Shown: piece after piece, positions 1 to 53,581 of the stretch
Numbering within the stretch: the first letter of the stretch is position 1
How the letters are laid out: each line of letters opens with the position of its first letter
DNA from: Grifola frondosa
Taxonomy: Eukaryota > Basidiomycota > Agaricomycetes > Polyporales > Grifolaceae
NCBI GenBank assembly: GCA_001683735.1
Contig: LUGG01000043.1
Coordinates: forward strand, 1 to 64,000
Direction of reading: 5' to 3'
Length of the DNA stretch: 64,000 nucleotides
The notes under the pieces: model-generated
Database searches by the model: none
What the model was told of the DNA's origin: nothing
Seen by the model: the letters and a program-made list of their open reading frames with translations, nothing else
Position numbers and translations under genes: made by a program

Positions 1-870
1 GGCTGCTGCTGGTGGATCCAGTTCTTTGATCCAGTTCTGTTGGATCCAATTTTCTTGGATCCAATTCTATTGCCCTCTCTAAGGCAAGAAAGGAGCTCTT
101 TATATACCTTTTGAGAGGGCCCAGAATTCTCCCCGGACTCTTCTTCTCAGACTGTTCCAGCACTTTCCGGGAGGCTCCAAGCACAAGAAACCATGGTAAC
201 TACTGTGCTAGAATCTTCCAGTCCTTTCCAAAGTGTTTTCCTGAATGTTCCAGCTGCATCTCCCTGCACTGCCTCTCTGACTTCCTCCAATCAGAGCTCT
301 CCTAGGTCACCCGGCCCTCAGATTTGCATAGCTTTAGTAAGGCTCTTACAAATCTGGGGCAGGGGATTACAAACCCAAGGTGCCCTTTTCTCCATTTCAA
401 GGACCTTTCTCTCACAGAGTACATAGCCTTGAAGACTTTGTCATCCATTTGAGATATTCCCTGACTAATGGAGGTCCTCTACCTTATAAATTTGCACAGC
501 CTTAGTAAGGCAATCACAAATCTAGGGTAGGGCCCTTACAAATCTGGGGGAGTTAGTCTGCCACTTTGAGAAGCACATGGTCTATGGTTCCAGGGCTGTG
601 AGTCTCCTGAAGGCTGTTCTACATCACCTCAGGTGGCTTGTGGCTGTGTATCCCTGTGACCATTGCCATGCTTCTCTTTTCAAAGGCTGTACAGACTTTC
701 CCAGGACTCTGCCTTTCTTCCAGTCCCTTCCAGAATTTGCTAACCTGATCTTCTTCTTCCTGTTTCCGCGATGTCCTGCTGTGTCCAACTCCTTGTCTCC
801 TGACTTTCCTGCACCTGATTCTTTCCCGCACTCCTTCTCCTCATGACCCTCCATGCTTTCCCATCCCATC
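1..870 (-). mobile_element. LTR retrotransposon end (Ty3/gypsy-like), fragment
   Basis: Read on the minus strand, the stretch has the look of an LTR. A TATA motif lies near position 101-106 and is followed by short GGATCCAA-type repeats towards position 1. Two related direct repeats (around 316-356 and 486-545, each with a TTAGTAAGGC core and an ACAAATCT-GGG core) lie inside it. Towards 870 a highly charged Lys/Arg/Glu-rich open frame (869 to 624, minus) resembles the C-terminal part of an agaricomycete Gag. No protease, reverse transcriptase or integrase is visible, so only an end of the element lies in the window. The assignment to gypsy is by general appearance only. Confidence 0.4.
101..106 (-). 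promoter_or_regulatory. TATA motif of the putative LTR
   Basis: TATATA on the minus strand, followed downstream by a short leader and GGATCC-rich repeats. This is the position expected for a U3/R junction if the LTR call is right. Confidence 0.3.
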
Positions 871-879
871 CTACTTGAT

Positions 880-1257
880 TTAACGATGGTTGTCGTCGTT
901 TACAAGTGGGTGAAGAGGGTAAATCATGGATTCCGGCTTCGTCATCTCGTTATCCGGACTGACAGCGTATAGGGAATATCGCCACCAGGTCATTGCATAG
1001 GAGACGAGCGAATGCTGAACGTACTCGTATCGTACTGCGAAACCAATGGTGCAGGTGCCGTCGATGTGAGAAAGGGCGAGGAATATTCGTGTTTCCTGGT
1101 ACTGGATGATGTGGTCGATATGGCCCGTGAACGTAATTCCGGATCGATCTGTAAGGTGCACGAATCCGGACAGTGGCATGAGGTCGAATCCGGTGGCGAG
1201 TGTGTCGTATAATAGGATGGGGAACCGAGGATCGATTACCATGGGGCACCATGGCAT
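880..1257 (-). CDS. Unrecognised 125-residue open frame
   Basis: A minus-strand open frame begins MPWCPMVIDPRF. It is rich in hydrophobic and aromatic residues in short beta-like runs (YDTLATGFDLM, GFVHLTDRSG), with no signal peptide or membrane segment. I do not recognise the family. It sits between the retrotransposon end and the truncated Plavaka transposase, so it could be a small host gene, a piece of an unknown element, or chance. Intron signals were not resolved. Confidence 0.25.
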   Translation of the reverse strand: MPWCPMVIDPRFPILLYDTLATGFDLMPLSGFVHLTDRSGITFTGHIDHIIQYQETRIFLALSHIDGTCTIGFAVRYEYVQHSLVSYAMTWWRYSLYAVSPDNEMTKPESMIYPLHPLVNDDNHR

Positions 1258-1429
1258 GCGTCATTGGGTGGGATTGGGTGGAGATTTGACATGATTGATG
1301 ATGTCTAAACTCGATCCCGATGGTGGCCTTCGTGTGCTGTGCATATTACGGCACTCGGTTGACTTGGTTGCCAAAGATGGTTATTTTTGGCCCTGTCCAG
1401 GTACCAACCACGTTTGGTGCGTGACAACG

Positions 1430-1896
1430 CGCCAAGCGATCCTTCGGGGGTCGGCGGAATGCATCGCGAGCATATCTGTGCAACCCCATTGTGGTGGGGC
1501 GTAGCGCCGAGATTTGACTGTGCTTTCGTCAACTTGAATAGTGATTATAACCACAACAGAATCCGCAGACTAGGAGTAGTTCGCATTCATTTACTTTTCT
1601 CATTCAAGTTTCACGGTGTCACTTACCCCTGCGCTCTCATTCGTTGGTTCCAACATGTTGCAGATGAACCTGATGAAGATACGGGGATGTATATTGTCTG
1701 CCCCGAATGGCGAGGCCACTCACCTGTTCTATCTGTAATCCACCTGGACACAATTGTTCGTGCTGCCCACCTGATCGGCGTATATGGCAATAAACCAGTT
1801 CCAGCGGGCCTTACAGAACGTGACGCTCTTGACGCGTTCCGTTACTTCTACGTCAACAGGTTTGCTGACCACCACACATTCGAGACAATCTTTTAA
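1430..1896 (+). pseudogene. Plavaka transposase, C-terminal fragment
   Basis: The open frame starting at 1387 reads, from about 1430, APSDPSGVGGMHRE, then DEPDEDTGMYIV, IHLDTIVRAAHLIGVYG and ends DHHTFETIF. The same blocks, in the same order, end the P2 transposase (49,860-50,334), so this is a second, independently diverged copy. The part upstream of APSDPSG is missing, leaving roughly 155 residues of a protein that is normally around a thousand residues long. It keeps an open frame to its natural stop at 1896. It cannot be a working transposase. Confidence 0.85.
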
Positions 1897-2474
1897 AGCC
1901 ATCCATAGCACCATCCTCAGTAGCAGGTGTGTCACTACTGCAATTCTTCCAATTGCGCACTCGTTCAAAGTAAAATCTCCCTGGATCTTAATTCGGACAG
2001 ATGGACCCAGCACTGTGCTTCGAACCTTTGGTCATCTCCATCTCTAGTTCAATTCAAAGAACATGTGGCTCCTCTCTCACGACGCTCAAATGATGACGAC
2101 GAAGCGCTCCCGCATCTGTACAACTCGCTAGCACAATCCATTATTCCCGTACAGACATCCCCAACCCACCAGCATCTCACTTCCACCCAATGATCAACTT
2201 GCACGCATTCAGCTCGAAGGATGTACTGGTCCAAATGTTGTGGCCACTTACATCCCCCCCCCTCCCCCCGGTTGTTATTTCCGATGTCGCCTTCCCTGGT
2301 CCCACGATAGTGTGCTGGAGCATTGTCGACAATCCCATGAACCACTCGCCAAGCTGGCCGAACTCACCTGGACAATACTGGGCTAGAACTTTCATGCATA
2401 CGTTGCGTCTCTCGCCGACGTATGTAGCCAGACAGCGAGTCCAACAGACACTCAAGCTATAACAACGCATTCTC
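1897..2474. other. Stretch without a recognised gene
   Basis: Between the transposase stop and the repeat tract. It contains a C-run (around 2258-2276) and short open frames without recognisable motifs. The same stretch is not seen at the equivalent place in P2, where a HECT-ligase fragment lies instead. Confidence 0.5.
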
Positions 2475-3842
2475 TGCACATATCCTGATATCTCGAACCG
2501 TCTCAAATTGCCTCGTCAATTCCATCTTGAAGATTTACAGTTCTGCCCATCTCTCCGATTACGTCGAATTCTGTCTTCTTCCCCTCGACTCCCGCAACAT
2601 GCATGCCCTCTCTTATTCGCTCCCCGGTCGTGGTCCGAGCACCTCATGCGCTCGGGCCCGCTGGCAACCATATGCCTCCATGATCACGTTATCATCAACC
2701 ACCATAGGTCCTTCGCACTTCCCTCCAGTCAACGTTATCGCCCCAGCTTTCTCTGTCGCCTCTACCTCTCCATCCGTTTCTCTGCGTATATCCCGATACC
2801 CTGAACCGTCCCAAATTGCCTCCGCCTTGAAGATTACCATTTTGTCTATCTTTATCAATATTTCCACCTCGATTTTCACCAGTGCCAGCTTGTTTTGATT
2901 TTTAATACTGTGTTGTCCTGTCTCCTCCGATCTCCACTCGATTCGGTCTTCTTTTTCTCCACTCCCGCAACATGTGTGCTCTCTCACTCGCTACTACCCC
3001 ATCGCGGTCCGAGCGCCTCCCGCGCTTGGGCCCGCTGGCAATGTATGCATCCAATATTGCATTATCATCAACCGCTACAAGTCCTTCACGCTTCCCGTTA
3101 CAGCCCATCTTAATAGCCCTGCTTCCTCTGTCACCTTGACATCTCCATCACCCGTCTATGTCAACCCTATATGCAAGCCTGAGACAGAACGGCTCAAATA
3201 CTCTTCTCAATCGTCGGTGTCAAATACGCTGCAAGATATGCCACCTGACTTGTTGGTTAGTCCACAGTTCCTTCATTTCTTTTTCATCTGGCATAGGTTG
3301 TTTGCGCCAGCTGTCCAGCTCGTTCTCATCTGTGGTGAACCTATGCTGGGCAGCTGTATCAGACAACCCCAATGCAGCGCATTGGAACACCGTCTACCCC
3401 ACATTCTGTCGATAATCCGATCAATGTTGACGCTGGCCATCTATAGATCAGGCCGTTCGTCTCTCCACGAAATATGGCATCCTGATGACATCCCAGCTGT
3501 CTCCACTTGCGTGTGGTGCGCTTTGCACCCAGCCTGCCTCGTCCCCCTCTCCCACCCCCCCAGCTGTCCCACCGGTTGTTCAGAAAAAGCTCTCTGCGAC
3601 TCGCAACACCCAATTACCCTCCCCCATCATGCCTTCCATATGTCCCTCCACTTTCCGATGCAGATGTTTCGACTAGTTCAGCATCCGATCTGGCCTCTGG
3701 CTGCAACCTCGTACCTATCAAGGGTTCCTACACAAAGTCCTTCACCACTCTCGTACGTCCGCTGGCATCCTCTAGACTGCATTGTTCTGTCCAGAGGCTA
3801 TTCATGGAAGGTCCCAGAGCTTAATCGGAAAGAGAAGACAAT
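2475..3842 (+). repeat. Repeat tract R1, shared with P2, with internal tandem duplication
   Basis: CT-rich sequence with a second diverged copy at 52,273-53,545. Shared landmarks in the same order include CTCCCGCAACATG, a block with GGTCCGAG and CGCTGGCAA, TCTTCTCAATCGTC, TTGTTGGTTAGTCC, and ATATGGCATCC-GATGACATCCCAGCTG. Within each copy a unit of about 0.37-0.40 kb is present twice (near 2598 and 2968 here; near 52,268 and 52,668 in P2). Both tracts stop at a GA(A/G)GACAATG-like sequence, immediately followed by a host gene fragment (PRP8 here, FAS2 in P2). No protein function is recognised, although long open frames cross it. Confidence 0.75.
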
Positions 3843-4170
3843 GCCAACAACCAGCGATTGTGTTCAAAATGTCGCCTGTCTTTCGTCATGTCCCTTCCCA
3901 AACCAGAAGCTGCTTAAATGCTTCATCTTGGGTGAGCTGAAGACTTGACCGGAGAAAGCGATGACAGAGATGAATCTGTTCAGACAACTCCAAGCTACAA
4001 AATTCTTCTAGATGATGCGTCTCGACCGGTCGAAGTCTGTCTTCAGGTCTGCCATCACGGATACACCATGCTCAATTTTTGGATTCACAGAAAGGTACAT
4101 TGGTATAATCTTCACTTGATTGTGGCACGTCGCTGATTCATTTGTCAGAACCTCAGCTACTTGCTCCTAG
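3842..4170 (+). pseudogene. prp8: PRP8 fragment A (spliceosome core protein, decayed)
   Basis: PRP8 is the large U5 snRNP protein at the catalytic heart of the spliceosome. Here the reading QKLLKCFILGELK, then NLFRQLQATKFF and, after frameshifts, VCLQVCHHGYTML matches the PRP8 segment around QKLLKCFVLNEL..LLIHRK. The end of this fragment repeats DNA found again at about 7835-8040 in fragment C. The first half (QKLLKCF..ATKFF) is exactly the part missing from fragment C. It begins directly at the right edge of repeat R1. At least one frameshift and stops make it non-functional. Confidence 0.8.
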
Positions 4171-4179
4171 ACTCTTCAT

Positions 4180-4800
4180 TTGGGAACATGGGCGAGCGTT
4201 CGTGTCGCTGGATGAGATGCACGCCATGTGAAAGATCGTAGCGGAACTGAGCGCAGGTCGAGGTGGGGAGCTTCGAGCGCAAGGGTGACAAGCTGTACCT
4301 CGTGCCAGAGGTGTTGCAGGGGTGATACGGCAAGGCAGCGAATATATTCAGCCTCAGGATGACGATATTGGAGATGGTGTCGAACATCGTCGTGCCGGAC
4401 CAGTGCGTGCTTTCTCTACTCTTGATTATGTATGGTCCTGTAGCTAACCTTACTTATGTGGTGTGTAGGGGTGAGGGTTGCATCGGGTGTGGCTGGAGGG
4501 GAACGTAGAGCTGTAGGAGGAGCATGGTGCGCACACCGCCCGCGCTGCACATCGACACATGCACCCGGTAGTCTGCGTGCGCCGCAGGGGCTGGAGTAGA
4601 TGCATGCTCACAGAGTCGTGGTGTTTGGGACATCTTCGCTTGGGAGTCCCAGCGGGGTTCCTGGACGAGATCCTGGGACATGGGAGGGTGCACGGGCGGG
4701 AGCATGACATGGATGGGGCACATGAGGTATACGGGTCCGACAAATACAAACAGATGGAAATGCGGCGAAGGAGGAGCTGCGGCTTGTGAGTTCTGTGATT
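4180..4800 (+). pseudogene. wee1: Wee1-type protein kinase fragment, decayed
   Basis: Wee1 kinases phosphorylate Cdk1 and delay mitosis. The frame at about 4275-4402 reads SFERKGDKLYLVPEVLQG, stop, YGKAANIFSLRMTILEM and NIVVPDQ. This matches the kinase subdomain VIII-IX region of basidiomycete Wee1 (..[29 protein letters not shown]..). The stop TGA at 4323-4325 replaces the conserved Arg (CGA to TGA is the simplest change). Upstream LDEMHAM and KIVAELS fit the preceding helix. Downstream (4558-4800) HPVVC and GVPAGFLDEILG resemble the Wee1 C-terminal region, with weaker support. It lies between two PRP8 fragments. Confidence 0.65.
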
Positions 4801-4837
4801 TCTTATTATTCTCGTTTTTCCTACCCTCCCACCCTGC

Positions 4838-5802
4838 CTTTCCCATGCAGTAAACATGATGGTGGGTTTGTAGCTATGTGGAAGCAGGTGCGTTAGTCAT
4901 TGTCATTCCACAATGGTACACTTATTTTTGTCTAGGATCTCCCGCCCGAGCATGTGCGTAAAATCATCAGGGACCACGGTGACATGAGCAATTGCAAGTT
5001 CAGGAATGACAAACGCGTCCGCCTCGGTGCCCTTAAATACGTTCCTCATGCCATCATGAAACTGCTCGAAAGCATCCCCTTTCCCTGGGAGCAAGTATGC
5101 GAGGTCCTAGTGCTCTATCACATCACTGGCACTATCACATTGGTGAACGAGATTCTGCGAGTCGTTGAGCCTGTTTATCACGCACAATGGAGCAGCATGT
5201 GGTTTGCCATGCGGCGAGAAAAATGCGATCATCGACACTTCCAGCGCATGTGTTTTCCCCATTTGACGATGAAGAGCCACCTCTCGATTATGGTGACAAC
5301 GCACTGAATGTGGAACCACCTGAAGCCACACAGCTCGAACTCGACAAGGAGGACGCTACCCTCTATGAATGGTTCTACGATCCGAAACCTCTCATCGATA
5401 CTCCTGCAGTGAATGGGCCATCGTACAAATGTTGGTCTCTCGCCCTCCCCGTGATGGCTAATCTGTACCGCCTTGGACGTATGCTTTCATCTGATCAGGC
5501 TGACAGCAATTCGAGCTATCTGTTCGACAAAAAGTCATTCTTCACAGCCAAGGTGTTAAAATATGACCATCCTGTGTGGCCCCAAATTTGAGCCCTTATA
5601 CAGAGATATGGATGCTTCTGACGAGTACTGGAACGAATTCAACGACATCAACAAAATCATCATTCGTCAGAGATTCGGACAGAATACAAGGTGGCGTGTC
5701 CGCATCCATACAATTCGCTTCCGCATCAGTCCAAATTTCACCGTATCATATCCCATAGCTCACCGAGAGCTTCTCATAGGCATTCAAGCCGATGAAAAAT
5801 GG
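4838..5802 (+). pseudogene. prp8: PRP8 fragment B, N-terminal region, decayed
   Basis: After a remnant intron (about 4890-4940) the frame reads [18 protein letters not shown], then [20 protein letters not shown] and PWEQ, followed after a frameshift near 5225 by [26 protein letters not shown] and WFYDPKPLID. Then [11 protein letters not shown] and [13 protein letters not shown] follow. These are the hallmark N-terminal PRP8 blocks in native order. The fragment ends at a splice-donor-like GTAAGC (5803), inside which the RPN7 copy begins. Frameshifts near 5225, 5570 and 5690 break the frame. Introns are retained, so the source was genomic DNA rather than mature mRNA. Confidence 0.9.
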
Positions 5803-5875
5803 TAAGCTTCTACAGTGATACTAATGCTATGCATACTACTAATGTCTGGATCCTCTTCGTGACATATGGAATACA

Positions 5876-7431
5876 GAGATGGCACCACTACCGCACAGTG
5901 ACCTCCTCTGCTGTGCTTCCACCATATTAAGCTCTGCTTAAGTCTATGGAGAAGGCGAACAAGGAAAAGCTGGACGAGCGATTAGAGGAGGCGAATAAGA
6001 CAGACAGAGAGACGGACGTTGCGGATGCCCTGTGGGAACGAGCAAATTATCTTACCAGAATCCGGGACAAGGTGTGTGCACATTCACTTGTCACTCATCG
6101 TTAAAGGTAATAACTTGTAGTTGTTCCTTCTACGTATGATCGAGTAGTGTTGCTGCAGCTAAGTCAGGCCTAAATGATATATGACTTATAACTTCTGCAC
6201 CTTTTCAGATATTACAGTGATCTTACATTCATTTTGTAGCCTATATATAGCTGCATAACTTGCCACATATCAAAATGTTATATCTTGTATTGATGGAGAT
6301 ATGGCCAAAAAGCCGATTGCAAAGTCCGACTTTTTAGTCAGCTTTTTTACCAATGTAACTGAAATTGAAACATATTAAAGATAATTATGCAAATGCTGGT
6401 GTTACATTCAAATACATATATATCTTAGCTATTAATTCCAATTAAGATCATGTCATTATCTGCAAAACTCATGTCAGAATATCGAAAAAGCTGAAACAGG
6501 TGTGACTAAGCCGTGGCAACACTATGATCGAGCAGTGGAGGCACAGAAATTGGTGCTAGAGAAGACCCGTGGGCTAGGATCTCGGATAGATATTGTGCTC
6601 ACCCTCGTGTGGATCGGATTCTTCTTCGGCGACTACCAGATGATCACAATAAACTTGCCCAAGCCGAAGAGTGAGTATGATGTTCCACCAGGCATTAGAT
6701 TACTGGCGCTCAGACATCCTGCGTACGCAATGTTTGAGCACATGTTGGTCCATGCCCTTCATGTCTCTGCTCCGTGCACATTCTGATCAGTCATGTAGGA
6801 TGATTTAGCAAGGCGGCGACTGGGACAGGCGCAATTGTCTTAGGTTTACCGTGGCATGCATCTATTGTCTATCCGGCAACTTAAATGCGGAGGCAAACTG
6901 CTTCTAGATGCGCTATCGACATTCACGGCGACGGAGCTTCTTTCATATAACGATTTCGTTGCACTCACAATTATCACCAATGTCCTGACTCTTGAGAGGG
7001 TGGATCTCAAGAAGAAAGTCTGTGCTATGCTTCATTCTTCTTTTCCAAAACATCATAAATTAACCGCTGCGGCAGCTCATCTTGGCCACAGAAGTTATTT
7101 AAGTACTTCCCGAATTGCCGACATTAGCAGAACTTATGAAGAGCTTATATGACTCGCATTATGACAAGTTCTTCCTCGCACTTGGTAAGCATATCATCTG
7201 GTGGTAACGCGGGTAAGCTCATTAAATCTACGCGGTGCTCCAGCGACGCTTGAAGAAAATTATCTACTCCCATCCCGACTCCTCTCACCACATACTACAC
7301 GTTTCCACACACACGTTTCTACATCCTGGAGATGCGCATTCTCGCATACGGCCAATTGCTGAAGTCCTCTTGCAGCTTGACTCTCGACAGTCTTGCACGC
7401 TCATTTGGGGTCAGCGTAGAGTTCGTTGACA
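5876..7431 (+). pseudogene. rpn7: RPN7 (26S proteasome lid subunit) copy nested in a PRP8 intron
   Basis: RPN7/PSMD6 is a PCI-domain lid subunit of the 26S proteasome. Successive readings match it: KSMEKANKEKLDERLEEAN, DVADALWERANYLTRIRDK, then (after an insertion) [90 protein letters not shown] and [19 protein letters not shown]. Several frameshifts and stops are present. The copy ends at VEFVDR followed by a GT donor, which is faced by the acceptor of a PRP8 exon at 7480. It therefore lacks the last C-terminal part of the PCI domain. Confidence 0.9.
6073..6480. other. AT-rich insertion or long intron inside the RPN7 copy
   Basis: About 400 bp between RPN7 exon pieces (RIRDK before; EAQKLVLEK after). 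It is much richer in A+T than the flanking exons and about eight times longer than other introns here. It starts with a GT donor. No open frame or terminal repeats were recognised. It could be an old insertion in an intron. Confidence 0.4.
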
Positions 7432-7480
7432 GGTATGTGGTGGTGTCTTCCAATTATACCCTGTTACTTACCCTTACTAG

Positions 7481-9300
7481 ACTCGTACAGACGACTCCAA
7501 TGCACCGGCATTCTACTTTCATCCCTTAATCAACCCAATCTCTGTACGTGGATTCGGTCCAAAGAACACACTGCTCATCTCTCACGAAGACCTAATCTTG
7601 GGCCCGAACGGTGCCGACGAGGACGATTTTGAGCTTCCGGATGAGCTAACACATTTCCTTGAGGAGAAGCCCTTCGAGAACGATCTGACTGCAGGCGCTA
7701 TCGCCCTGTGGTGGGCACTCGAGCTGTACACTTGTCGATCCAGGATGCATGTGGCAAGGACAAGATGTACCTCTGGTGAAGAAACGGTATCTCAAGCACT
7801 GCCCTCTCAATCAGCCGGTAAAGGTGCGAAGTGCTTCGTCTTCAAAATTCTTCCAGACGATGCATCTCGACTGGGTCGAAGCCTGTCTTCAGGTCTGCCG
7901 GCAAGGATACAACATGCTCAACTTATTGATTCATCGAAAGGTACGTGGATATAATACTTCCTTTGTCGTGGCCCGTGTCTGACGGTCATTTGTCAGAACT
8001 TGAACTACCTTCATCTAGACTACAACATGAACTTGAAGCCAGTCAAGTAAGTAAGCACAACCCTCATACTGAATAACCTCTAACGACCTATTCACAGGAC
8101 GCTGACGATGAAGGAGCGCAAGAAATCTCGCTTCGGAAATGCATTCCATCTGTGTCACGACATTCTCCGCTTGACGAAACTTGTTGTCGATGCCCACGTC
8201 CAATTTTGACTTGGTAACGTCGATGCATTCCAGCTCGCAGATGCACTAGAGTATATCTTCGTAAATATCAGTGCATTGACTGGTATGTACCGATACAAGT
8301 ACAAGGTTTATATGATTTCACATTCTTTCTGTCCCAATCTTGCTGACACATTTTATTATCGTAGTTGATGAGGCAAGTTCGCGCAATGAAGTATCTCTCA
8401 AGCATCTGATCTGTTACTGCTTCAACACGGACCCTGTTAGTAAGGGCCCTAGATGCAGTTTCTAGGCCCTTGGATGGCGTATATAGCTACCCTTTATGCG
8501 CGGTATGGTGTCTTTACTCAAACGATGGTATATTTATTTTTTATCCAGTAGTTCCCATAGCTCATTTTGTTTGTTCAGGTTGGGCAATCTCCTCACCTGA
8601 CAGTCCGAGGGCCGTAACAGCAAGGGCACCACACGTACAGTGACAAAGCACGATCTTGAGCTCCGCGCCATCGTCGTGCACGATACTCTTTATATGATGC
8701 GCGAGTCCATCAAGCAGAACAAATACAACACAATTTTGCAATGCTTGTCAGGAGCTTGGCGATGCTGGAAGGCGAGCATTCCTTGGAAGGTCCCCGGGAT
8801 GCCGACAGCATCATTCTGTGCTACATCAAGAGCAGGGCCAATTGGTGGTGCTCGAACGTCTTTTCAGATCATTTGTCGGTTCCATTCCTGATATTTATGT
8901 CTATAGGGCCGCTCGCTACAATCGTGAACGTATTGTCGTGGTTAAACTGTTGATAAGCCTGTCGTAAAGGAGAATCTGGGTTGCCCAACTCGTAAGTGAC
9001 TCCTTCGAGGTTCCCACACACGTCCATCCTAACGTTAACTCCATGTCTCTACCTCAAGGCCGAGCCAGTGAGACAGCATGGCTACCTGAAGGATGGTCCG
9101 TACATCAGCGCTGACTCGGATGAAGCAGTAGCAATCTACACTGCTACCGCGCATTGGCTGGCAAGCCGGAAGTTCTCCAATTCCTTTCCCGTGAGTAAAA
9201 CCTCATGATATCCTTTTCTCCGCTAAATAACTTGTCACAGATTCTCGTAGTCGCTTGAACTACAAGCATGATACGAACCTGTTCATCCTTGCTCTTGAGG
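7481..9300 (+). pseudogene. prp8: PRP8 fragment C, middle region, decayed
   Basis: Starts at an intron acceptor with [18 protein letters not shown], directly continuing PRP8 from where fragment B stops. Later blocks are [44 protein letters not shown], intron, [96 protein letters not shown] and LNYKHDTNLFILALEDL. About 34 residues (QKLLKCF..LKAT) are missing after VKVR; they occur in fragment A. Nonsense codons include TGA at 8207 (expected Arg) and two TAG at expected Trp positions near 8455-8480. Frameshifts are frequent. Confidence 0.9.
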
Positions 9301-9309
9301 ACTTAAGTC

Positions 9310-9830
9310 ACCTCCTGTCGTGCGGACGACTCGCACATGCTCACCGAGGCTGCCGTCAATTACTATGACCACCGTGCATGCAAGTCCGGCAGCCTACTCA
9401 TCATTAAAGTCACCTTCATTGCTGCCAAGACCAGCAGACAGAAGCACGTCCCTGAATACGGAGTGATGAGCAAGTTTCCACCTGGAAAAGGGTATGTGTC
9501 ATGCCTGTTCACCTTTCATGATCTCCCCAGCAACTTTACCTCGAGTCTATATTACAGATGTAGTGCACCATCATGACTCCCACATGAACCATCAGTTGCC
9601 ACGCATTCGTTGAAGATGCTCTCATGGAGGACCCCTCATTCAAATATGTGTCTTCGTCGCCATGCCCATGGCCCAGCCCGTCTGACCTGCGGAAGACTCC
9701 ATGCCTGCTAACCATTCCTGAGATATGTGAGTACGTGCTGAGCTGTTTGCGGCGCAGCGTGCAACGCGGTGCATCGCGCGGGGTTCGGCGGGGTGGCCTG
9801 TCATCCAGGCTGAGTGGTTGCCTGCTTACA
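9310..9830 (+). pseudogene. Old-yellow-enzyme (NADH:flavin oxidoreductase) fragment, decayed
   Basis: The frame at 9337 reads MLTEAAVNYYDHRA, GSLLIIKVTFIAAK and VPEYGV. This fits the OYE N-terminal barrel region (..YYxQRAS.PG.LLITEATFIA..VPGI..). Further on LTIPEICEYV and, in another frame, AACNAVHRAGFGGV match the OYE segment around the HGANGYL motif. The FMN-binding C-terminal part is absent and frames are shifted, so it is inactive. It is fused downstream of PRP8 and upstream of a DUF1752 exon. The assignment rests on two conserved blocks. Confidence 0.65.
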
Positions 9831-9861
9831 TGTTTTTCTTCCATCCCCCTTTTTGCCATTA

Positions 9862-10900
9862 GGGAAACAAGTCCTTCGTCCCCTTCAGTAATCTCAATGA
9901 TGCGGATTCTCTGATAAAGACATGGGAGGTGAGCTTTTTTCTTGTCTTCGTTGTCTCTTCTCTCCATGGCCCAGGTTCTGACCTTTCCCCAGGTTTGTAC
10001 CAAGATTGTCAGCTTCTTGGAGCAGGACCAGCGACTCGAGAACTTGAATTGGAGACCGTGGCATCCCCAAGACCTCATGGTCAATACTGATAGTGCCAGG
10101 TCCAAGCACGACTTCAAGAAGCTGTCCAAGTGCATGAGGGATAAACTCGACAAGGAGACAGGGCAGTATGTTGCCATACGGGTCATCCTTTTGTACCCCA
10201 TTGATACCTTATCCCACAGGAACATCGAGCTCCAGGCCGTAGGCTTCAGATGCAATCATTCAACCGAACTGCTCCAACAGCGCATTCTCAAGAAGGAGGC
10301 GCAAACGCCGAGGCGAGCCAGAATGGCAGGCACAGCACTATCTATCACATGCAGTTCACTTGCAACGTCGACCAGCCCGCCCGTCTCACCACCTTTTCCG
10401 TCACCGAAGCCCGACTTGCATCCCTCCCCCGAATTCAAGGACAACGCCATCAAGCATGGCCAGCCTGTGACCAGTCCAATCATCGTTGAGAATGCTCCCA
10501 CTGCCGCCATCGCTGACAAAGATGCCGACAAAGACCCCCGCTTACCCAACGCGGCTGCAAGCTGTTCGCCTCCGCCAATAACAGATCCGTCTCCTCCAAT
10601 GACCTGTATTCCTCTGCATCTCCGGATGGCTTCAGCGTCGCCGCCCCATCATGGAGCTCACGCTTGATGAGTTCCTGAATGCCGACAGTCCCGACACCTG
10701 GTCCTGGGTGGATCTAGTAGTAGCAACGCATGGCTTGTTGAGCACCTCGACGCGCAGGAAGACATCAGGGTGCACTGTGCGAATGGTACCTCATTATACA
10801 CTATCGGTATCAATGATGCAGTTCCCGCTCGCACACCAACTAGGATGCCACAGTGCCGACCGCGGACCCAACCACCCTTATTGCTCTGAATTTCCTTAAA
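9862..10900 (+). pseudogene. DUF1752 (GATA-like motif) protein fragment
   Basis: Starts at an intron acceptor (TTGCCATTAG). Readings include DADSLIKTWE, an intron, VCTKIVSFLEQDQRLENL and NWRPWH. This is the short DUF1752 motif of fungal regulatory proteins (..W..Y.....LP...RLENLSWR.W..). Later KLSKCMRDKLDKE, then a Ser/Pro-rich low-complexity tail to about 10,650 and LTLDEFLNADSPD. The motif is found in fungal proteins linked to nitrogen/glucose signalling; the function of this protein is not known. Open stretches are long (241 codons from 9942), so it is less decayed than the PRP8 pieces, but a full-length gene is not visible. Confidence 0.6.
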
Positions 10901-11268
10901 TCATGTTGTTTGTACGCGGAAAGCAGAAAAAGCGCTCTAAGACGTGAAATTAAAATAAGAATACTCTACCGCCATTTACCTTTTCTGCTTTAATCTGCTT
11001 ACTGTTTTTTACACACATTTTTGTTCTGAGCAGTCTTACTGAGATCGAATATTGGCGCCCGAAATGTTTTTCTTAACTTCATTTTCGGCCTTGAGAGTCT
11101 TTTATTTGCTTTTACGCGAAATGTCACCATTTTCTTGTATTACTTAGCTTTCTTAGTTTTCTTAGTTTTCTTATTTTCTTTTTGAGGATCTTTATTTTAC
11201 TTATTTGTATTTTTTAAGGACAAAAAGGATGGAAAGGAACAAAAAGCAAAATTCGAGTTTTGCTGATG
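10901..11268 (+). repeat. P1 right subterminal region and terminus
   Basis: AT-rich stretch with the motif AGCGCTCTAAGA (10,931), which also occurs near the left end of P2 (about 43,520). It ends with GAGTTTTGCTGATG at 11,268, the inverted form of the P2 left terminus CATCAGCAAAACTC. This marks the right end of P1. Confidence 0.7.
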
Positions 11269-11761
11269 TGGTGCCTCCTCATGCCAAAATATGCATGCCC
11301 TGCAGCTAGCTTCGGGTCGAGAAATTTGCAGTCTCAACGCGCCAATTTGCAGTCCCAGCATGCTCCGTAAATTCGCCCAGCATCCTGCTCCCTCTGCGCT
11401 CGGCTTCAACTTTCTTGCCTTCTGTTGCACTCAATTGCCTCGGGATTTGCATAAGATTTGACAGTGTATATTCGTACATATTTTCGGCACAAGAAAACTT
11501 TTTTATTGTGACAGATACTTGCTCTGATAAGTATGTTTTGGTTATGTCAGGTTCTCCCTCTTGGAAATCGCGCACATGCATCTTACATAATCATGCCGGG
11601 GGACCGTCAATCTGACGGGCTCTTCGGGTAAGTAAGTAACTCATAACATAAGTACATCGGATGCGGTAGTATTCTACGATTAGTAAGCTATCACCTGCCC
11701 GAACTCTGATCAGATGGGTCCTACATACAAGCAAGACCGGTCCCACAGTCCCTTGTGTCAC
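11269..11761. other. Spacer between P1 and the CACTA element
   Basis: No recognisable gene. A minus-strand open frame of 91 codons (11,581 to 11,306) has no family resemblance. Confidence 0.5.
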
Positions 11762-42951: not shown

Positions 42952-43296
42952 AACATGTGGTTGAAGCCGAGGATACCACCTACAAGACTTGCCTTATCAA
43001 GACAACACAATATCGCCCGATCTGACGACCACAACCCCGCGCAGTCCTTGCTCAAGTTTAGCTTCAAGATTCCAGTGCTTGAACGTTTGAATTCTGATGC
43101 CGAACCTGATAACTTGGAGGAACATATATCATCGATCCTCAGAGACAAGTCAACACTCCTGTTAGTCAATCATGGTCTGTCACTTAGTACTTTGATCAAC
43201 GCTTCTCGTGTCAGAAGCAATCCATCCTCCTCCCTCTCGCAGCGTCTAAACATCAGCAAAACTCGGATGGCCCTTATGCACTCTTATTTGTCTTAA
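42952..43296 (+). CDS. Open frame running into the P2 left terminus; possibly a truncated gene
   Basis: Reads MWLKPRIPPTRLALSRQ (a possible mitochondrial-type leader: basic, no acidic residues), then SLLKFSFKIPVLERLNSDAE and SILRDKSTLLLVNHGLSLST. The frame continues across the transposon boundary at 43,251 and stops at 43,296, so the last 15 codons are transposon sequence. No continuation was recognised to the right of P2 (after 56,804). Family not recognised. It may be a host gene interrupted by P2, or not a gene. Confidence 0.3.
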   Translation, partial: NMWLKPRIPPTRLALSRQHNIARSDDHNPAQSLLKFSFKIPVLERLNSDAEPDNLEEHISSILRDKSTLLLVNHGLSLSTLINASRVRSNPSSSLSQRLNISKTRMALMHSYLS

Positions 43297-43297
43297 A
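43251..43297 (+). repeat. P2 left terminal inverted repeat region
   Basis: CATCAGCAAAACTCGGATGG, then CCCTTATGCACTC and TTATTTGTCTTAAA. Its inverted form matches the P2 right end (56,768-56,804) over the outer 14 bp and again at the TTATTTGTCTTAAA part. Confidence 0.75.
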
Positions 43298-44089
43298 AAA
43301 GACTACAAAGAATGATAAGAGATCTCATAAGAACTATGTCTCTGAAAAGCTCTTAGATTGAATTTGTTCTCTTCAAGTTCTTTCTAAGTGTAATAGTATT
43401 CAGAATATTAAGTCTGCTAAAATGATAAAGACTTCGAAGCAGAGAGAGAATATGCAAGCATCAATATATCCCACATTCGTTCAATCCCTTTTAAAGGTCT
43501 GAAGAGCTGTCAGCGCTCTAAGAATTCAAATAGCACACTAGTGCTCTGATTATAAATGCTCAATGGAGACAAAATCAATTATATTAAGAAGCAAAATTGA
43601 CTATCAGAGTATGCAGAATGCAATACTACTCAGTAGCGGACAGAAGAATAAGCAAGCTAATAACAAAGACAGCTACAATAGAAAAACCAAGATGGAAGCA
43701 TCACCACTAAGGAAAGAAGCATCACCGCACAAAAAGTACTGCAAGAGCGTGAAACGCGTCGTAAGACTGAGAAGAACTGCAAAAGCTATCCGGCAACATT
43801 AAAGAGAAGAAAGTAAAGCAAAATTGGAGCAAACGCCACATGCGAGCGTCGAACGTCTCGTAGCCCGTGCATGTACCTGTGAGGCTGATTAGCTCATGTA
43901 GACGCAGATAGAAATAAATGTACGCATAAATAATCCGACGAAATGAAGAAGCATAGAAATGAAATGAGCATACAAGTATGAGACGGAGATTGAGGGGAGG
44001 TTCGACTTATAGGTGGAGCTATTACAAGATACCTTATGTACAGCAATTAGCACTTAGATGTATTGAAATAAAGGAAACATACCAGTCTT
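43298..44089. other. P2 left subterminal region
   Basis: AT-rich and purine-rich, with repeated AGCTCTTAGA/AGCGCTCTAAGA-like motifs, one of which also occurs near the right end of P1. Such subterminal motifs are candidate transposase-binding sites. A 79-codon Lys-rich frame (43,563-43,802) is probably chance. Confidence 0.5.
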
Positions 44090-46299
44090 AATCGGAGATA
44101 GGATCGTTGTCGACGAGCATCGCGCGCGCCGTATCCTCATCCTCATCCGAGACGACGATGATGGCAGGGCCAGCTCTTTGAGCGATCTTCCTAATCCTCT
44201 CGGCCCCAAGATTCAATACCGACTTCACGTAAAGACGTGTGGGACCGCCCCATCGAATGTCGCTGAACTGAGTATAATTCTTCCCTCGGGAGCGTCCCGC
44301 TCAGTGAACGGCTTCGGGATGTACTCGATCTTGTTATCGGGCTTGACGATGACTCGTTCCTCTGCGTACAGCCACAACGCCCGTTCGACCTATGAAGAAA
44401 TCATACTCGACTTATAGGAACACAAAACAAGACGGTACATACTGCTGCGCCGGCCATAGCAATCGCGCCGATCGGCCATGAATCCGCCTCAGATTCGTAT
44501 AGTTTGGGAACATTGATCGCGCCGCTAATGCACAAAGTGATGTGCAAGGGTCTTGATTACAAGTGGTGAGCAGAAGAGACCACCCTATAACAGGTGAGTG
44601 AGTCACGTACAGCACACTATCCATTACTACGTACTTTAGAGAGTGACGTTCATACAGAAATGCCAAGCCTTCCATCATCGAGTCGCCTTCTTCGCACGCG
44701 CGCTATGATCGAACGCAAACACTTGACTCTGCTTGAACCAACGGTCAAGGGTATTGATCGCCATGTTCCCCATGCCGCAGCGCCATTCGCTCAGCCTCTG
44801 AGTGATCTGTTAGAGGATATGTGAACTACGATCTGATTCTATCAGAGAGTAATCACTTACCATCGTGCTCAGTAAATTGATTGGTTCTGGCAGGTCAACG
44901 CTGGTTCCGAACGTGGCAATCCAAATTGTCCGGACGACCTCCAACCCGTCAGGTGCATTGGGTGATCCGGACTCGATGAATGACCAGGGGTTGTCCAACG
45001 ATGCGACAAAACGTAATAAGGTCGGCATCACCACCTTCTTGAAACGAGCGTTGACCTCGGGTGACAACTTGTATGCTTTCTCCTTGCTGCTGGTGCTGCC
45101 AGATACTGACCTACTAGAAGTTCCTCGGCGCTTCTTCTCACGCGGGTCTTCGAGATCGTGGTCGCCTAGCACGAATTCTGATCGAGGCTCAGACTTGATG
45201 AACTTGAGCTCAGGTTCACGCTCTGAATCGCTCGGCTCGTGCTTCTTTGTGACAGTGACCATGCCCTATGTGTCACATTTTCAGTATGAAGTGGAAAGTG
45301 AGTGAATAGGACCTACGTACGTCGCTAGTGATTCGCCTTCCTTTTCCCTTGATTGGACTTGAATGGGCTGCTTCACGCTCTATGCCCTCATCCTCACTGA
45401 TGAAGCCGCGTCCGACGTTCAGGGTGTTTTGTAGTTAGACACCTGGGCCGTCTTGCGTTTGGACTTCTTCGAAGGTTTCACGACCTCAGGAGTTGGCGGC
45501 GGCGGCAACGCAATACTTTCAGAAGACTTGGCCGAACGAGAGCTCTCAGTGGTCGGCATGACGCTACTAGCCCAGCCCGACTCAGCTGAACTTTCTGGCA
45601 CAGTCCAATCATCTTTTAGTCCGAACGCTCTCGGGACGGATGTTGCCTCTTTCGCCAACCTGAAAAAATACGCATTAGTATGTATTATGCATCATGTCGC
45701 GTGAAATTCGCTTACTTGTTCTTCATGTTGGATGCGGACTCCTTGTCCTTCTCTTGTGTAGCCCCTTTGCCTTTTTTCGAAGAGGCCGCTGCTGGCTTCA
45801 TCATCGCCGGGCTGTCCCAAGAGTCATTGACGAGGGCGGGTACTTGAGCTATTTCTTTCCGTGCCTCTGAGATGGCATCTCTGACTCCGGACGACTTCTT
45901 GGCCTTCTTCGGCGGGGCATCCTCCTCGGAAGCTGAGGTAAGACTGCTGAGCTCTGTGTCGCCCCCAGCCCCAGGTGCGGGCGTGTCATCCTTGCGACGA
46001 GGCCTCTTCCTTTTCTTGTCCTCATCGACCTTGGTGATATCCAGCACGGCGCCTTCACGCTTCAGTGGGCGTGATCGAGTTATACGCCCGGCCTCGATTT
46101 CTTCGTCTGCATTCTTGATCTGATTCTCTATGTGGGCTACTCTGTTTTGCTTTCGGCTTTGTGACTTCACCTTCTCTTCCCTTTCCTCCTCCTCCGCTGC
46201 GCGAACTGCTGCCATCTCCGCCTTTGTACGATGCTTTTGCCTGGGGACTATAAGGCCAGGATGCTTCTGAGCGTTGCTTGCGCGGGTGACAATAGGCAT
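44090..46299 (-). pseudogene. Plavaka accessory gene (divergent second protein), multi-exon, frameshifted
   Basis: Start MPIVTRASNAQKHPG at 46,299; exon 1 46,299-45,716 and exon 2 from 45,659 are joined by a clear intron. The N-terminal part is basic and coiled-coil-like (RQKHRTKAEMAAVRAAEEEE, AHIENQIKNADEEIEAGR) with a nuclear-type basic stretch (KKRKRPRRK). The middle is Ser/Pro/Lys-rich. C-terminal exons give NARFKKVVMPTLLRFVASLD, GLEVVRTIWIATFG, ITQRLSEWRCGMGNMAINTL, IPKPFTERDAPEGRIILSSA. A frame change near 45,400 and a missing base near 44,690 (before MMEGLAFLYE) suggest decay. It is transcribed away from the transposase. Helper proteins in this position are common in Agaricomycete Plavaka elements; the activity is unknown. 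Confidence 0.6.
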
Positions 46300-46546
46300 A
46301 ATGGGCTAGGGAGATGAGGAGCTAATAGGAGAAGCTGACGAATAATTTTCGCAGTGAGAATTTTCGCAGTGAGAGTGCAAAGTGACACGCAATGCGGCGT
46401 CTAGCGGTGACTTAGGATTTGTGTCGGCAACTCACGGAGTGGACGTAAGACGGTACGGCTAAGTTTATCACGGCGGCAAGGTAATAACCTTCAGACTTCT
46501 CCATACTTACTATCTAGTACTCACATCATCCATTCGACTTCTCAGG
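46300..46546. promoter_or_regulatory. Bidirectional promoter region of P2 with a perfect 15-bp direct repeat
   Basis: The 247 bp between the two divergent start codons must serve both genes. It holds two adjacent perfect copies of AATTTTCGCAGTGAG at 46,344-46,358 and 46,359-46,373, a candidate protein-binding repeat. Confidence 0.45.
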
Positions 46547-49500
46547 ATGTCCAACCCTCGATCAGCGCGTCCGAGACCGCGACCTATCCGCAACCCCGTA
46601 CAGTATGTATGTACAAAATGTCGCCGACGATTCAAAAACAAGGCCGGACGCACTACGCACTTCGGTGCACATCATCGAAATTCCCCCGATCGGTTTCCTT
46701 CCGTAGCCAATCCGAGCATGCAGCGAAGCGGGCTGCGAAATATATCAAGTTCAGATGGTCAGTATATACACATTCAATGTCTTTGGAAGAACGCGCTCAT
46801 GAAGGCGTAGATGGAGATGGCATTGACGATGATACGGATGAAGGCACGGATGAAGGTGTGGACGCAGACGCGGACATAGACGCGGACATGGATGTGGACG
46901 CAGTTGTGGGTGCCGATGCTGATGCGGACCGGGATGCGGACGTGCACATGGACGCGGACATACACACTGACACGGACGTAGAAGATCAGGATTTAGGCTT
47001 TGATCTTCAAGAACCTTCCTTTGAATTCGAAGGTGAGGATGATCGGAGCGCGAGCTCGGGCCCGGAAGATAGCAGCTCAGAAGACAACGAGGATCAATGG
47101 GTCGATGACAATGCCCCACAGCATGTGCCCGAAGACCATGATCTAGACGACGAAGTTCCTGAAGGCCTCACGAGGGAGTTCCATGAACATATCAATGGTA
47201 AGTTCTGCGTATCTCTTTGTCCAATGCAATATATTTACCTTCTACTCGGCCAGGAACACCGTGCGACGAAAACGGCAACTACCTGCCACCCGGAACGCCT
47301 CCTACTCCACCACCTACACCTTCGGCAGATGATTGGACGCCATATCCGCAGTCGTACCGAATTTGAAACTGCGGATTTATTATATAGGCGCACTCAGATG
47401 CCTGCAAAAAACATCGACGCGCTAATGGATCTTTGGGAAGCAACACTTCTGAAACATCAAGATCACGCACCTTTCGCATCTCATAAGGACCTCTACGATA
47501 CGATTGATTCCACACGTCTTGGTGATGTAAAATGGGATTCTTTTGAGCTTTCTTACGCTGATGAGCTGCCCGAACGAGACGTTCCAAAGTGGATGACATC
47601 CAAATACGATGTCTGGTTTCGGGATCCTCGCGCTGTCGTACAAAATATGCTTGCCAATCCCGACTTCAATGGAGAGATTGAGTTCGGGCCGGTTCGAGAG
47701 TATGTCGATGGCGAGCGCAGACTGAAAGATTTCATGTCTGGAGACTGGGCTTGGAGGCAGGCGGTGCGTCGTTCTATCCCGTTCGCGAAACATTGCTTGA
47801 ATCTATTCTAGGATGCCATTGCGGCTGATCCCGCAACGCACGGTGCAGCATTTGTCCCAATCATTTTAGGAAGCGACAAAACCACCGTCTCCGTCGCTAC
47901 TGGCCAAAACGAATACTATCCGCTGTATGTGTCGATTGGGAATGTTACGAACAGCGTGCGTCGAGCGCATCGCAATGCTGTCGCTCTGGTCGGATTTCTT
48001 GCAATCCCGAAGGGTAAGTGGTCGATTTTCTCTCAGCTTCCAGTTGAACTACTGAACCATTACCTTTATAGCAAGCCGCAAGTATAATGACGACGTCAAA
48101 TTTCGCAAGTTCAGAAAGCAACTTTTCCACACCTCACTGGCTCGAATCCTTCAATCCCTCAAACCCGGAATGACGACCCGGAAGTCACACGTTGTGGTGA
48201 CGGCCACTTCAGACGCGTGATTTATGGCCTAGGTCCGTACATTGCGGATTATCCGGAGCAGGCTCTTCTCGCGTGCATTGTCCAAGGCTGGTGTGCAAGG
48301 TATACAGTTCTTCTTCATTACTTTCAAATCTTCTGATATACTATCAGGTGTACAGCTGTGAAGACCAATTTGGATGGCAACGATAGCATCCGCCGCACGC
48401 ATAACATACGGAAGAGCTAGTTGCCGACTTCGAGTTGGGAGTCCTGTGGGATGAATACGGTATCATCGGCGATATTGTGGTGAGTTCATTTTCCTTTCCC
48501 AATTGACTTCTCCCGCAGCTTGCGGTTATATTCTATATCTCTTGTGCCAAGCGAACAGAATTTTTATGTATCACTAATCTAATCTATGCTTTATTCGCAG
48601 CCATTTACAAACGACTTTCCCCGCGCGATATTCACGAGCTGATTGCGCGGATATTTTGCATCAGCTCATCAAGGGGACATTCAAGGACCACCTCGTCGAC
48701 TGGGTAGAGCAATATATTTATCAAACTCATAGTAAGAAAGATGCGGAGACTATTCTGGCCGACATCGATCGCAGGTGAGTTCTGCATGCTATCCTCGACA
48801 TTTATTATTGACAGACATTTAGAATTGCTGTTGCACCCCCCTTTGCAGGACTCCGTCGGTTCCCCGAGGGTCGCGGGTTCAAGCAATGGACAGGCAACGA
48901 TTCCAAAGCATTAATGAAGGTATACATTGCTCTAAAAATGCAAAAAATGACCAACTGATTGCCCAATAACAGGTGTACCTCCCGCCATTGTGGGGTACGT
49001 TCCTCGAGAAATGGTACGCTCAATCCGGGCATTTCTGGAGTTTTGCTATCTTGTTCGACGAAACTCGCATACGCCCAAGACACTCGACCAGTCGAATGAC
49101 GCTCTCAAGCGTTTCCATGAAAATCGTACCATCTTCCAGACGACCAACGTGCGTCCCACCGGTTTCTCGTTACCTCGTCAACACTCGATGGTGCACTATA
49201 ACTGCCTCATATGGGACTTTGCGGCTCCAAATGGCCTTTGCTCTTCAATCACGGAATCTAAACATATCGTAGCTGTTAAGAAACCATGGCGACGCTCTAG
49301 TAGATGCAACGCGATGGGACAGGTGCTATTGACGAACCAGCGTCTTGATAAACTTGCGGCCTCCCGTGTTGATTTCAAGGAGCGTGGAATGCTCGAAGGG
49401 TCCTGTCTGTTTGCAGAGCATCTTGCACTACGTTAATTCTTTTGCGCTGCTATCTTGATCATAACTAACTTATTCCTCAGATCCTGATGACAAATTCGAA

Positions 49501-50334
49501 GACACCGAGGACACCGAGCAGGCGGCTCCTGCAAAGCAGCACCAGGATCATCATCGAGCACAAGAGGAGGATGGTACAATTGCTGGTCCAACGGTTCTCG
49601 CGTACGTTGTGATGGCATCCACTTCTCGTGAGCATTGATCGTTTTCTGTATCAAATGCTAGCTCATGTGTATCAGGAACGAGGCATGCACGCACGGCAGT
49701 GGCTCTTGGAAATGAAATCGGGCAGCCTCGTCTATTGGAGCTCATTCGGCGGTTTCTCTACGAACAAACAAATCCGGACAGTGTCCTCACTGGGTTTGAT
49801 GTGCAACTCGATGCATGTCCCCGCTTTAACGAGCAAATTTCAATATTCTACTCTGCTGCAGCTACATACTACGCTCCGAGTGATCCCTCCGGAATTGGAG
49901 GTATGCATCGCGAGCATCTTCGCGCTACGCCCAAGTGGTGGGGAACTGCGCCTCGCTTCGATTGTGCACTTGTCAATCGGAATTCGAACTTGGACGGAAT
50001 ACACGGCCTCGGTGTTGTACGCATCCAACTTTTTTTCTCCTTCAAGCGTCGGGGCATTTTTTACCCTTGTGCACTCGTGCAATGGTTCAAACGGATAGCA
50101 GATGAGCCCGACGAAGATACCGGTATGTATATCGTGCGCCCGGAGTCACACCGCGGCACACCTGTGCTGTCAGTCATCCATTTGGACACCATCGTTCGCG
50201 CTGCCCACTTGATTGGCGTTTACGGAAGCCGCTCAGTGCCAGACGACCTTTCGCCGCACCACGCCCTCGATGCATTTCAATGCTTCTACCTTAACAAATT
50301 TGTGGATCACCATGCTTTCGAAACTATCTATTGA
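46547..50334 (+). pseudogene. Plavaka transposase, near full length, at least five frameshifts
   Basis: Exon 1 (46,547-46,757) encodes a C2H2-like finger, YVCTKCRRRFKNKAGRTTHF..H. An Asp-rich repeat follows, then FETADLLYRRTQMPAKNID, HKDLYDTIDSTRLGDVKW, DFMSGDWAWRQA, intron, VPIILGSDKTTVSVATGQNE, VRRAHRNAVALVGFLAIPK, IYGLGPYIADYPEQALLACI, GIIGDI, RRFPEGRGFKQWTGNDSKAL, VRSIRAFLEFCYLVRRN, FSLPRQHSMVHYN, AP-NGLCSSITESKHI, PWRR, QVLLTNQRLDKLAASRVDF, APSDPSGIGGMHREHL, DEPDEDTGMYIV and RAAHLIGVYG. The stop is at 50,334. Single-base losses relative to the family lie near 48,176, 48,405, 48,625, 48,648 and 48,984. Introns are otherwise intact. Confidence 0.88.
46806..46982 (+). repeat. Asp-rich short-period coding repeat in the transposase
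   Basis: GATGCGGAC/GACGCGGACAT-type repeats encode runs such as VDADADIDADMDVDA and DADADRDADVHMDADIHTD. The result is a strongly acidic segment between the zinc finger and the main domain. Confidence 0.75.
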
Positions 50335-50434
50335 ATCATATAATTCTCGGTGAGTTCTCTTCTTCTTCTTCCGTTGGTTAATTTGTATTCAGCGCAGGCG
50401 GTTTTTATTTCATGTTGCGCTATCGCCATTCAGA

Positions 50435-53545: not shown

Positions 53546-53581
53546 TGACTCCGATTCTCTTTATTTTATTTCTTCTATACT

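Follow-up and report, generated by a model that had tools for sequence, protein, structure and literature searches.

Host-gene fragments carried in large PlavakaB transposons of Grifola frondosa and their probable capture by gap repair

Introduction

A 64,000-nucleotide stretch of the Grifola frondosa genome (assembly GCA_001683735.1, contig LUGG01000043.1, positions 1 to 64,000, forward strand; here called the window) opens with part of a DNA transposon, P1, in which pieces of host genes lie behind the end of the transposase gene. How did fragments of PRP8, RPN7, a Wee1/Myt1-like kinase, an old yellow enzyme (OYE) and a GATA_AreA protein come to stand inside one transposon, all in the orientation of its transposase, and are they bounded by that element at all? 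An initial annotation had proposed repeated gene-fragment capture by a terminal inverted repeat (TIR) transposon of the Plavaka family. In this work P1 and related elements in the same genome were compared, and it is very probable that P1 is a copy of a large PlavakaB lineage that holds host-gene fragments between the transposase gene with its neighboring "A-region" and the right terminus, and that these fragments were captured during gap repair. Its identity as a transduplicating element is firm.

Results

Boundaries of P1

The right half of P1 occupies window positions 1427-11268, and the right end proposed at 11268 was confirmed by the TIR GAGTTTTGCTGATG with a TG flank. The left limit near 1400 turned out to be the end of a long terminal repeat (LTR) retroelement with the target site duplication (TSD) ACGC, and the left half of P1 lies on another contig, C20. 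Contig C36, which holds the window, begins inside this retroelement, for which at least 39 other genome matches were found when the best 40 of 113 candidates were scored (33 of those listed at 98-100% identity). The start of C20, read on the minus strand, holds more of the transposase gene and then the retroelement, and the empty retroelement site is present in the transposase gene of a related element, C16a. The two contigs (C20 reversed, C20:1-1650, and C36:1-1430) appear to be neighbors across one copy of the LTR retroelement. Upon joining of the halves the ends of P1 read CATCAGCAAAACTC...GAGTTTTGCTGATG, with the left TIR at C20:12730-12743 preceded by TG and the right TIR followed by TG, i.e., a TG/TG target duplication. 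With one TIR on C20 and the other in the window, P1 therefore measures about 20.9 kb excluding the retroelement (C20:2001-12600 counted by coordinates). Scattered insertions with no shared boundary, which the initial annotation had named as the outcome contrary to its reading, are thus not what is seen. Allowing one mismatch, the 14-mer GAGTTTTGCTGATG occurs 250 times in the genome, as against 9 occurrences of the reversed control pattern. The features of this part of the window are as follows.

1..1426, no strand: end of an LTR retroelement (ends ...GTGACA), inserted in the P1 transposase gene and not part of P1
1427..1430, no strand: ACGC, 4-bp target duplication of the retroelement; second copy at the start of C20; flanks lie beside the empty site in C16a
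1427..1896, plus: C-terminal part of the Plavaka transposase gene (open reading frame ending at TAA); 80-81% DNA identity to the C16a transposase
2568..3878, plus: A-region with internal repeats, between transposase and cargo; matches in C16a, C22, C20b, C5a, C19 and P2
3902..4173, plus: PRP8 piece that repeats part of the main PRP8 fragment; 80% to C17:226636-226362
4174..4813, plus: Wee1/Myt1-like kinase piece with a 139-bp internal deletion; 75-80% to C19:451888-451075 (minus), donor with Pkinase
4861..5748, plus: PRP8 5' piece with introns (2/2 modeled introns kept); 89.5% to C17:227900-227010; PRO8NT
5756..7484, plus: RPN7 piece nested in PRP8 and interrupted by a miniature inverted-repeat transposable element (MITE); 84-88% to C16:492595-493928; RPN7 Pfam match
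6145..6524, no strand: MITE TAGTGTTGC...GCAACACTA with 8-bp TSD TGATCGAG, a later insertion in the RPN7 piece and not cargo (repeat matches, ends, TSD)
7477..9306, plus: PRP8 middle piece with introns (9/9 modeled introns kept); 84-85% to C17:226994-225064
9308..9796, plus: OYE (Oxidored_FMN) piece; 75.5% to C5:1921742-1921240 (minus); donor Pfam
9797..10766, plus: GATA_AreA (PF08550) piece lacking about 115 bp internally; 84-85% to C5:1299033-1300123; donor Pfam
10877..11268, plus: right subterminal region; 67-73% to C22, C16a and loci on C31 and C2
11255..11268, plus: right TIR, a 14-mer read at the element end
11269..11270, no strand: TG, 2-bp target duplication of P1, by flank comparison; other copy precedes the left TIR

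The part of the transposase gene on C20, where the PF18759 domain of P1 would lie, matches the C16a transposase at 73-74%. Relatives of the A-region are about 74-83% identical in their longer pieces and the region is retained beside differing cargoes; no Pfam family was found in it in plus- or minus-frame scans of P1.

Identity of the host-gene pieces in P1

A scan of window 1400-11268 in all three plus frames, with stops written as X, identified PRO8NT (E 1.8e-51), PROCN (E 1.2e-51) and RPN7 (E 1.3e-20), together with a sub-threshold match to the PCI domain; no Pfam family was found at E 0.05 in any of the three minus frames across 1430-11268. PDB sequence searches matched PRP8, RPN7 and PKMYT1 (Wee1/Myt1 family, E 1e-5). 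The OYE and GATA_AreA pieces have no Pfam match within the window itself and were identified via their donors (75.5% and 84-85% DNA identity), in which Oxidored_FMN (E 3.1e-44) and PF08550 GATA_AreA (E 1.9e-9) were found; we take GATA_AreA to be the former DUF1752 that had first been named here. The search for intact donors located PRP8 on C17, RPN7 at C16:492595-493928, the kinase at C19:451.0-451.9k, OYE at C5:1921.2-1921.7k and GATA_AreA at C5:1299.0-1300.1k, and across the five genes the DNA identity to the donors is 75-89%. The presence of five host genes behind the transposase, all on the plus strand, is thereby upheld. Three pieces of PRP8 had been counted and all are PRP8; the one at 3902-4173 repeats a section found within 7477-9306. 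Stop codons occur inside the cargo pieces. A chance origin of the mosaic is excluded because of the DNA alignments and the recurrence of two of its junctions in a second element. The MITE within the RPN7 piece is 380 bp long with 27-bp imperfect TIRs, has at least 36 further genome matches at 87-95%, and is presumably hAT-like.

Related elements in the genome

Elements C16a and C22 were chosen via similarity to P1, C20b and C5a via the A-region, and P2 is a second Plavaka element in the window.

C16a, C16:550623-572531 (21.9 kb), TSD TA: PRP8/RPN7 and further pieces
C22, C22:390219-409651 (19.4 kb), TSD CA: long PRP8 (7.3 kb)
C20b, C20:466962-480121 (13.2 kb), TSD GA: clathrin heavy chain cargo
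C5a, C5:179891-203605 (23.7 kb; C5:180.3-192.0k counted by coordinates), TSD TC: fatty-acid synthase (FAS) cargo
P2, window 43251..56804 (13.6 kb), plus: transposase, A-region and FAS cargo at 53713-56255

All six elements, P1 included, carry host-gene cargo, and all have the ends 5'-CATCA..TGATG-3'; identical 2-bp flanks are present in five of the six (TG for P1). The PF18759 transposase domain was found in each of the three elements scanned, C16a (E 3.5e-62), C20b (E 3.2e-63) and P2 (E 7e-78). Counting stretches of at least 95% identity, the Plavaka protein P0123 matches the C16a transposase in four, at 95.7-100%. The transposase model of P2, 1016 amino acids long, is predicted to be full-length, and P2 also matches FAS_I_H (E 1.5e-23).

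P1, C16a and C22 agree in the end of the transposase gene, in the A-region, in the presence of PRP8 and in the right end. Other TIR- and TSD-bounded copies with related mosaics do exist, as the capture reading had foreseen. More genes were captured than first proposed: clathrin, FAS, and ATP-sulfurylase and ArsA ATPase pieces are present in other elements; we label the latter two Pfam matches MET3-like and GET3-like. In C20b, C5a and P2 the clathrin or FAS cargo occupies the same place in the same orientation as the cargo of P1. The clathrin piece of C20b has its matching locus on C26 (92-93%) and is broken by a piece matching C3:730696-732372; the FAS cargo of P2 and C5a matches C8:897083-900351 at 81-93%. 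The right half of P2 has a 99% identical, inverted copy about 23 kb away, at C36:79383-85828 (minus).

Going by coordinates and strands alone, there may be seven further carriers, in which a transposase or A-region match lies beside cargo:

C32:264-274k and C2:3480-3488k: with clathrin
C3:1326-1343k, C38:67-74k and C36:79-87k: with FAS
C17:3-11k and C1:3218-3226k: with pieces also present in C16a

At C2:3184k there is an FAS match only. Around the A-region match C19:112082-113199 no TIR was found within the surrounding 18 kb, and in the minus frames of C19 105.2-114.0k an aspartyl-protease was the sole Pfam match. Elsewhere in the window a 213-bp stretch (18443-18655) has PlavakaB-like ends with unmatched flanks. 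A Plavaka MITE family in this genome is suggested because several genomic TIR pairs lie about 195-210 bp apart.

Order and junctions of the captured pieces

In C16a the A-region is followed by kinase, PRP8, RPN7, PRP8, ATP-sulfurylase, ArsA ATPase, a C6 piece split in two, a piece from C3:906.9k, about 0.8 kb of other sequence, two more PRP8 pieces and the right end. Its further donors are ATP-sulfurylase on C19, ArsA ATPase on C1, C6:451535-452150 and C3:906855-907599. The PRP8|RPN7 and RPN7|PRP8 junctions are common to P1 and C16a, and in both RPN7 stands at the same site in place of about 15 bp of PRP8 (C17 227004 to 226988). Judged by alignment ends, the first junction has a 7-bp filler in P1 and a 2-bp filler in C16a, and the second an overlap of 8 bp and 2 bp, respectively. 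The other C16a junctions show a 4-bp overlap (PRP8|ATP-sulfurylase), a 2-bp filler (ATP-sulfurylase|ArsA), a 4-bp filler (ArsA|C6) and a 2-bp overlap (C6|C3), while those of P1 measure 1 bp (PRP8|OYE) and 0 (OYE|GATA). The internal FAS deletion common to P2 and C5a has a 6-bp overlap. In C22, PRP8 is one unbroken stretch (C17 226869-219470; a 7,485-bp alignment at 88.6%).

Orientation of the cargo

The nine identified genes (PRP8, kinase, RPN7, OYE, GATA_AreA, ATP-sulfurylase, ArsA, clathrin and FAS) are without exception in sense with the transposase, which at equal odds has a probability of 1 in 512. On the opposite strand of C16:567500-570000 no Pfam family was found.

Introns, decay and selection

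The PRP8 gene model starts at C17:228116 and has 42 predicted exons, though its 3' end and some of the exons are incorrect or doubtful; a tblastn search with PRP8 of Trametopsis cervina, the closest listed protein (87%), covered the C17 locus over residues 1-2366. The description of the pieces as intron-bearing was borne out, since all 11 modeled PRP8 introns are kept in P1. The same is true of 35/36 in C22, of 26/26 in the main C16a piece, and of 3/3 and 2/2 in later pieces of C16a. No exon-exon junction was found at the internal gaps inspected, and none of those within the kinase, GATA_AreA and C6 pieces combines a GT start with an AG end. Capture from a spliced transcript is ruled out by the retained introns.

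Differences found in C22 only fall on 135/2341 codon positions 1+2, 67/1172 third positions and 73/1319 intron sites (5.8, 5.7 and 5.5%; Fisher p 0.85). Changes common to C22 and C16a number 6/2341, 36/1172 and 47/1319 (0.3, 3.1 and 3.6%; p 7e-18), and belong mostly to the donor's own branch. PRP8 in C22 is a neutrally evolving copy, because its own changes are equally frequent in the three classes, and the C17 locus is the constrained gene. Exonic indels, as scored, are frame-breaking in 44/52 cases in C22 and in 21/23 in the main C16a piece, several of these sites lying in introns or reflecting bases missing on the donor side. The first proposal had also spoken of exon shuffling; if the formation of new proteins is meant, it finds no support in the equal coding and silent substitution of C22 or in the stops and frame breaks; C16a is less clear. 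The cargo is mostly passive and decaying. Repeat-induced point mutation (RIP) was rejected as the cause of decay, as C>T plus G>A changes (247) and T>C plus A>G changes (184) in C22 show no strong bias. Insertions common to C22 and C16a were likewise rejected as proof of a single capture, their sites being donor-side missing bases or intronic.

The host PRP8 gene itself switches frame without an intron near C17 227507, 226904, 225552 and 223763, consistent with single missing bases. These breaks are probably assembly errors, and indel counts in this genome therefore need care. That the C17 locus is another pseudogene was ruled out by single exons that match T. cervina PRP8 at up to 98.8%, and by the changes common to C22 and C16a, which spare codon positions 1+2.

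Discussion

Placement among known systems

As defined in PMC12730594, PlavakaB elements have CATCA..TGATG ends, a 2- or 3-bp TSD, and C(2)C and H(3-4)H motifs between the second D and the last E. The transposase domain, the ends and the TSD length, 2 bp in every element here but P2, thus agree with the Plavaka assignment first made for P1; the elements described here differ in their size (13-24 kb) and in their patchworks of housekeeping-gene fragments. According to the same source some PlavakaB families of Agaricomycotina captured a TET/JBP dioxygenase gene. This capture is published, whereas no host-gene mosaic in a Plavaka was found in the searched literature, mostly without subscription journals. 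There was none in the available parts of PMC12730594 (in whose text the terms "gene fragment" and "transduplication" are absent), PMC9674265, PMC8290104, PMC7473861, PMC8955403 and PMC6396904, nor in those of a giant-transposon paper (PMC6431247) and the G. frondosa genome paper (PMC12028448). Among 120 listed proteins two, P0239 (Leucogyrophana mollusca) and P0171 (Athelia sp.), combine PF18759 with kelch-type or PF01031 domains; they may come from Plavakas of other mushrooms that hold cargo, or from fused gene models.

The elements hold host pieces whose donors lie elsewhere and occur in more than one insertion, as expected of transduplicating TIR transposons. Like Pack-CACTA and Pack-MULE elements, as described in PMC8903248 and PMC13317346, they have captured coding DNA between TIRs, with a TSD, and were multiplied by transposition. 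Pack-TYPE elements are defined there as non-autonomous and are known from plants, whereas those reported here are fungal and hold a transposase gene or domain (predicted to be full-length in P2; interrupted by the retroelement in P1) in the same element as the cargo, with long fragments at one place and in one orientation. The hAT-histone H3 case of Dothideomycetes (PMC3538342 and PMC6710886) is similar in that a housekeeping gene was multiplied in a fungal TIR transposon; it concerns one small gene, in P. fijiensis captured from a spliced transcript and inactivated by RIP, whereas here there are many genes, introns are kept and there is no strong C-to-T excess. Gene-fragment chains inside a DNA transposon are also reported for Helitrons, in PMC4289320 (Pleurotus ostreatus) and PMC6431247 (maize). 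The TIRs and TSDs rule out a Helitron here. Helitrons lack both.

Origin of the mosaics

Repeated gene-fragment capture, as originally suggested, is supported by the donors elsewhere and by the related mosaics of C16a and C22. Of the routes considered, gap repair with template switching fits best, as inferred from the anatomy of the junctions. After excision of an element, repair of an internal gap would have copied ectopic genomic templates, with microhomology-mediated switching between them at short homologies, and transposition would then have multiplied the product. An ancestor may have taken up about 8 kb of PRP8, which C22 would have retained as a long unbroken stretch. In one branch a kinase piece would have been added upstream, and about 15 bp inside PRP8 would have given way to 1.3 kb of RPN7; later, OYE and GATA_AreA pieces would have replaced the distal PRP8 in P1, and C16a would have gained the MET3-like, GET3-like and further pieces. 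Changes common to P1 and C16a at constrained sites are few (2/641 in one stretch, 3/454 in another), and therefore either little time passed between the formation of the mosaic and the spread of its copies, or there was more than one uptake of PRP8.

Several observations weigh against this history. The mechanism of capture is read solely from junction anatomy, and P2, with flanks AA/CC, has no TSD. The left limits of PRP8 differ between C22 and C16a (C17 226869 versus 227949), the six changes common to these two at the 2341 constrained sites are too few to prove one capture of PRP8, and there may have been separate captures into the same place. The intron model was made for this analysis and has some wrong exons, and the C16a 5' PRP8 piece, one of five scored, keeps only 1/2 modeled introns. 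Moreover, PRP8 in C16a has 65/2341 changes at codon positions 1+2 versus 109/2491 at silent sites (p 0.003; 2.8, 5.0 and 3.8% at positions 1+2, position 3 and introns) and may for some of its history have evolved under constraint. Finally, C16a 570080-570885 has no assigned source, and the captured or nested pieces C6:451535-452150, C3:906855-907599 and C3:730696-732372 have no Pfam assignment and were not scored for orientation.

Two other routes of capture are both unlikely, and to a similar degree. In the model proposed for plant Pack-CACTA (PMC13317346 and PMC8903248) two nearby copies flank a host locus and an aberrant excision joins their outer ends, so that the host DNA becomes cargo. 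Such neighboring insertions would account for the long contiguous PRP8 of C22, but they fit poorly with RPN7 nested in PRP8 at the loss of about 15 bp, with the C16a chain of pieces from four loci, with the transposase and A-region beside the cargo, and with the single orientation. The latter would follow automatically if reverse transcriptase on a transposon transcript had switched to host pre-mRNAs and the chimeric cDNA had served as repair template, and junctions with short overlaps or filler agree with this as well. The RNA would, however, have to be unspliced, since nearly all modeled introns are kept and the inspected gaps hold no exon-exon junction; the histone H3 case of Pseudocercospora fijiensis, by contrast, is intronless (PMC6710886).

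The remaining rivals concern the nature of the cargo rather than its route. That it was selected as functional coding material, yielding new chimeric genes, is very improbable: the deficit of changes at codon positions 1+2 in C16a speaks for it, but C22 fits neutrality, the pieces contain stops, and most exonic indels scored in C22 and C16a break the frame, with the reservation on donor-side and intronic sites made above. We give even less credence to an assembly artefact, or to unrelated nested insertions with no common element. The donor PRP8 does have single-base frame breaks that resemble assembly errors and P1 is divided over two contigs, but the two insertions that share these junctions are about 80-86% identical and differ in their flanks, each with its own TSD. 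Gap-repair capture by a PlavakaB lineage remains the reading we prefer.

As to polarity, PMC12730594 describes TET/JBP genes of some hAT7 transposons in the transposase orientation and considers parallel capture at similar positions possible. The simplest hypothesis for the sense-only cargo is the loss of antisense captures, antisense transcripts of essential genes being harmful. A more speculative proposal, to which we assign a low probability, is a dedicated cargo site with sense-only entry downstream of the transposase: capture may be coupled to transcription, with nascent unspliced templates, or the host's RNA silencing may remove antisense pieces. Sense pieces of such essential genes as PRP8, RPN7, clathrin and FAS would in that case protect the transposon, which could not be silenced without silencing the host gene as well.

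With these elements a basidiomycete transposon family joins the few known to shuffle pieces of host genes. The Plavaka mosaics have unusually large pieces and readable stepwise histories, with nested junctions, donors in the same genome and measurable decay. When mushroom genomes are annotated, their fragments of essential genes are easily taken for genuine genes or paralogues, and their sense-only polarity offers a way to test whether RNA silencing filters gene capture or transcripts serve as its templates.

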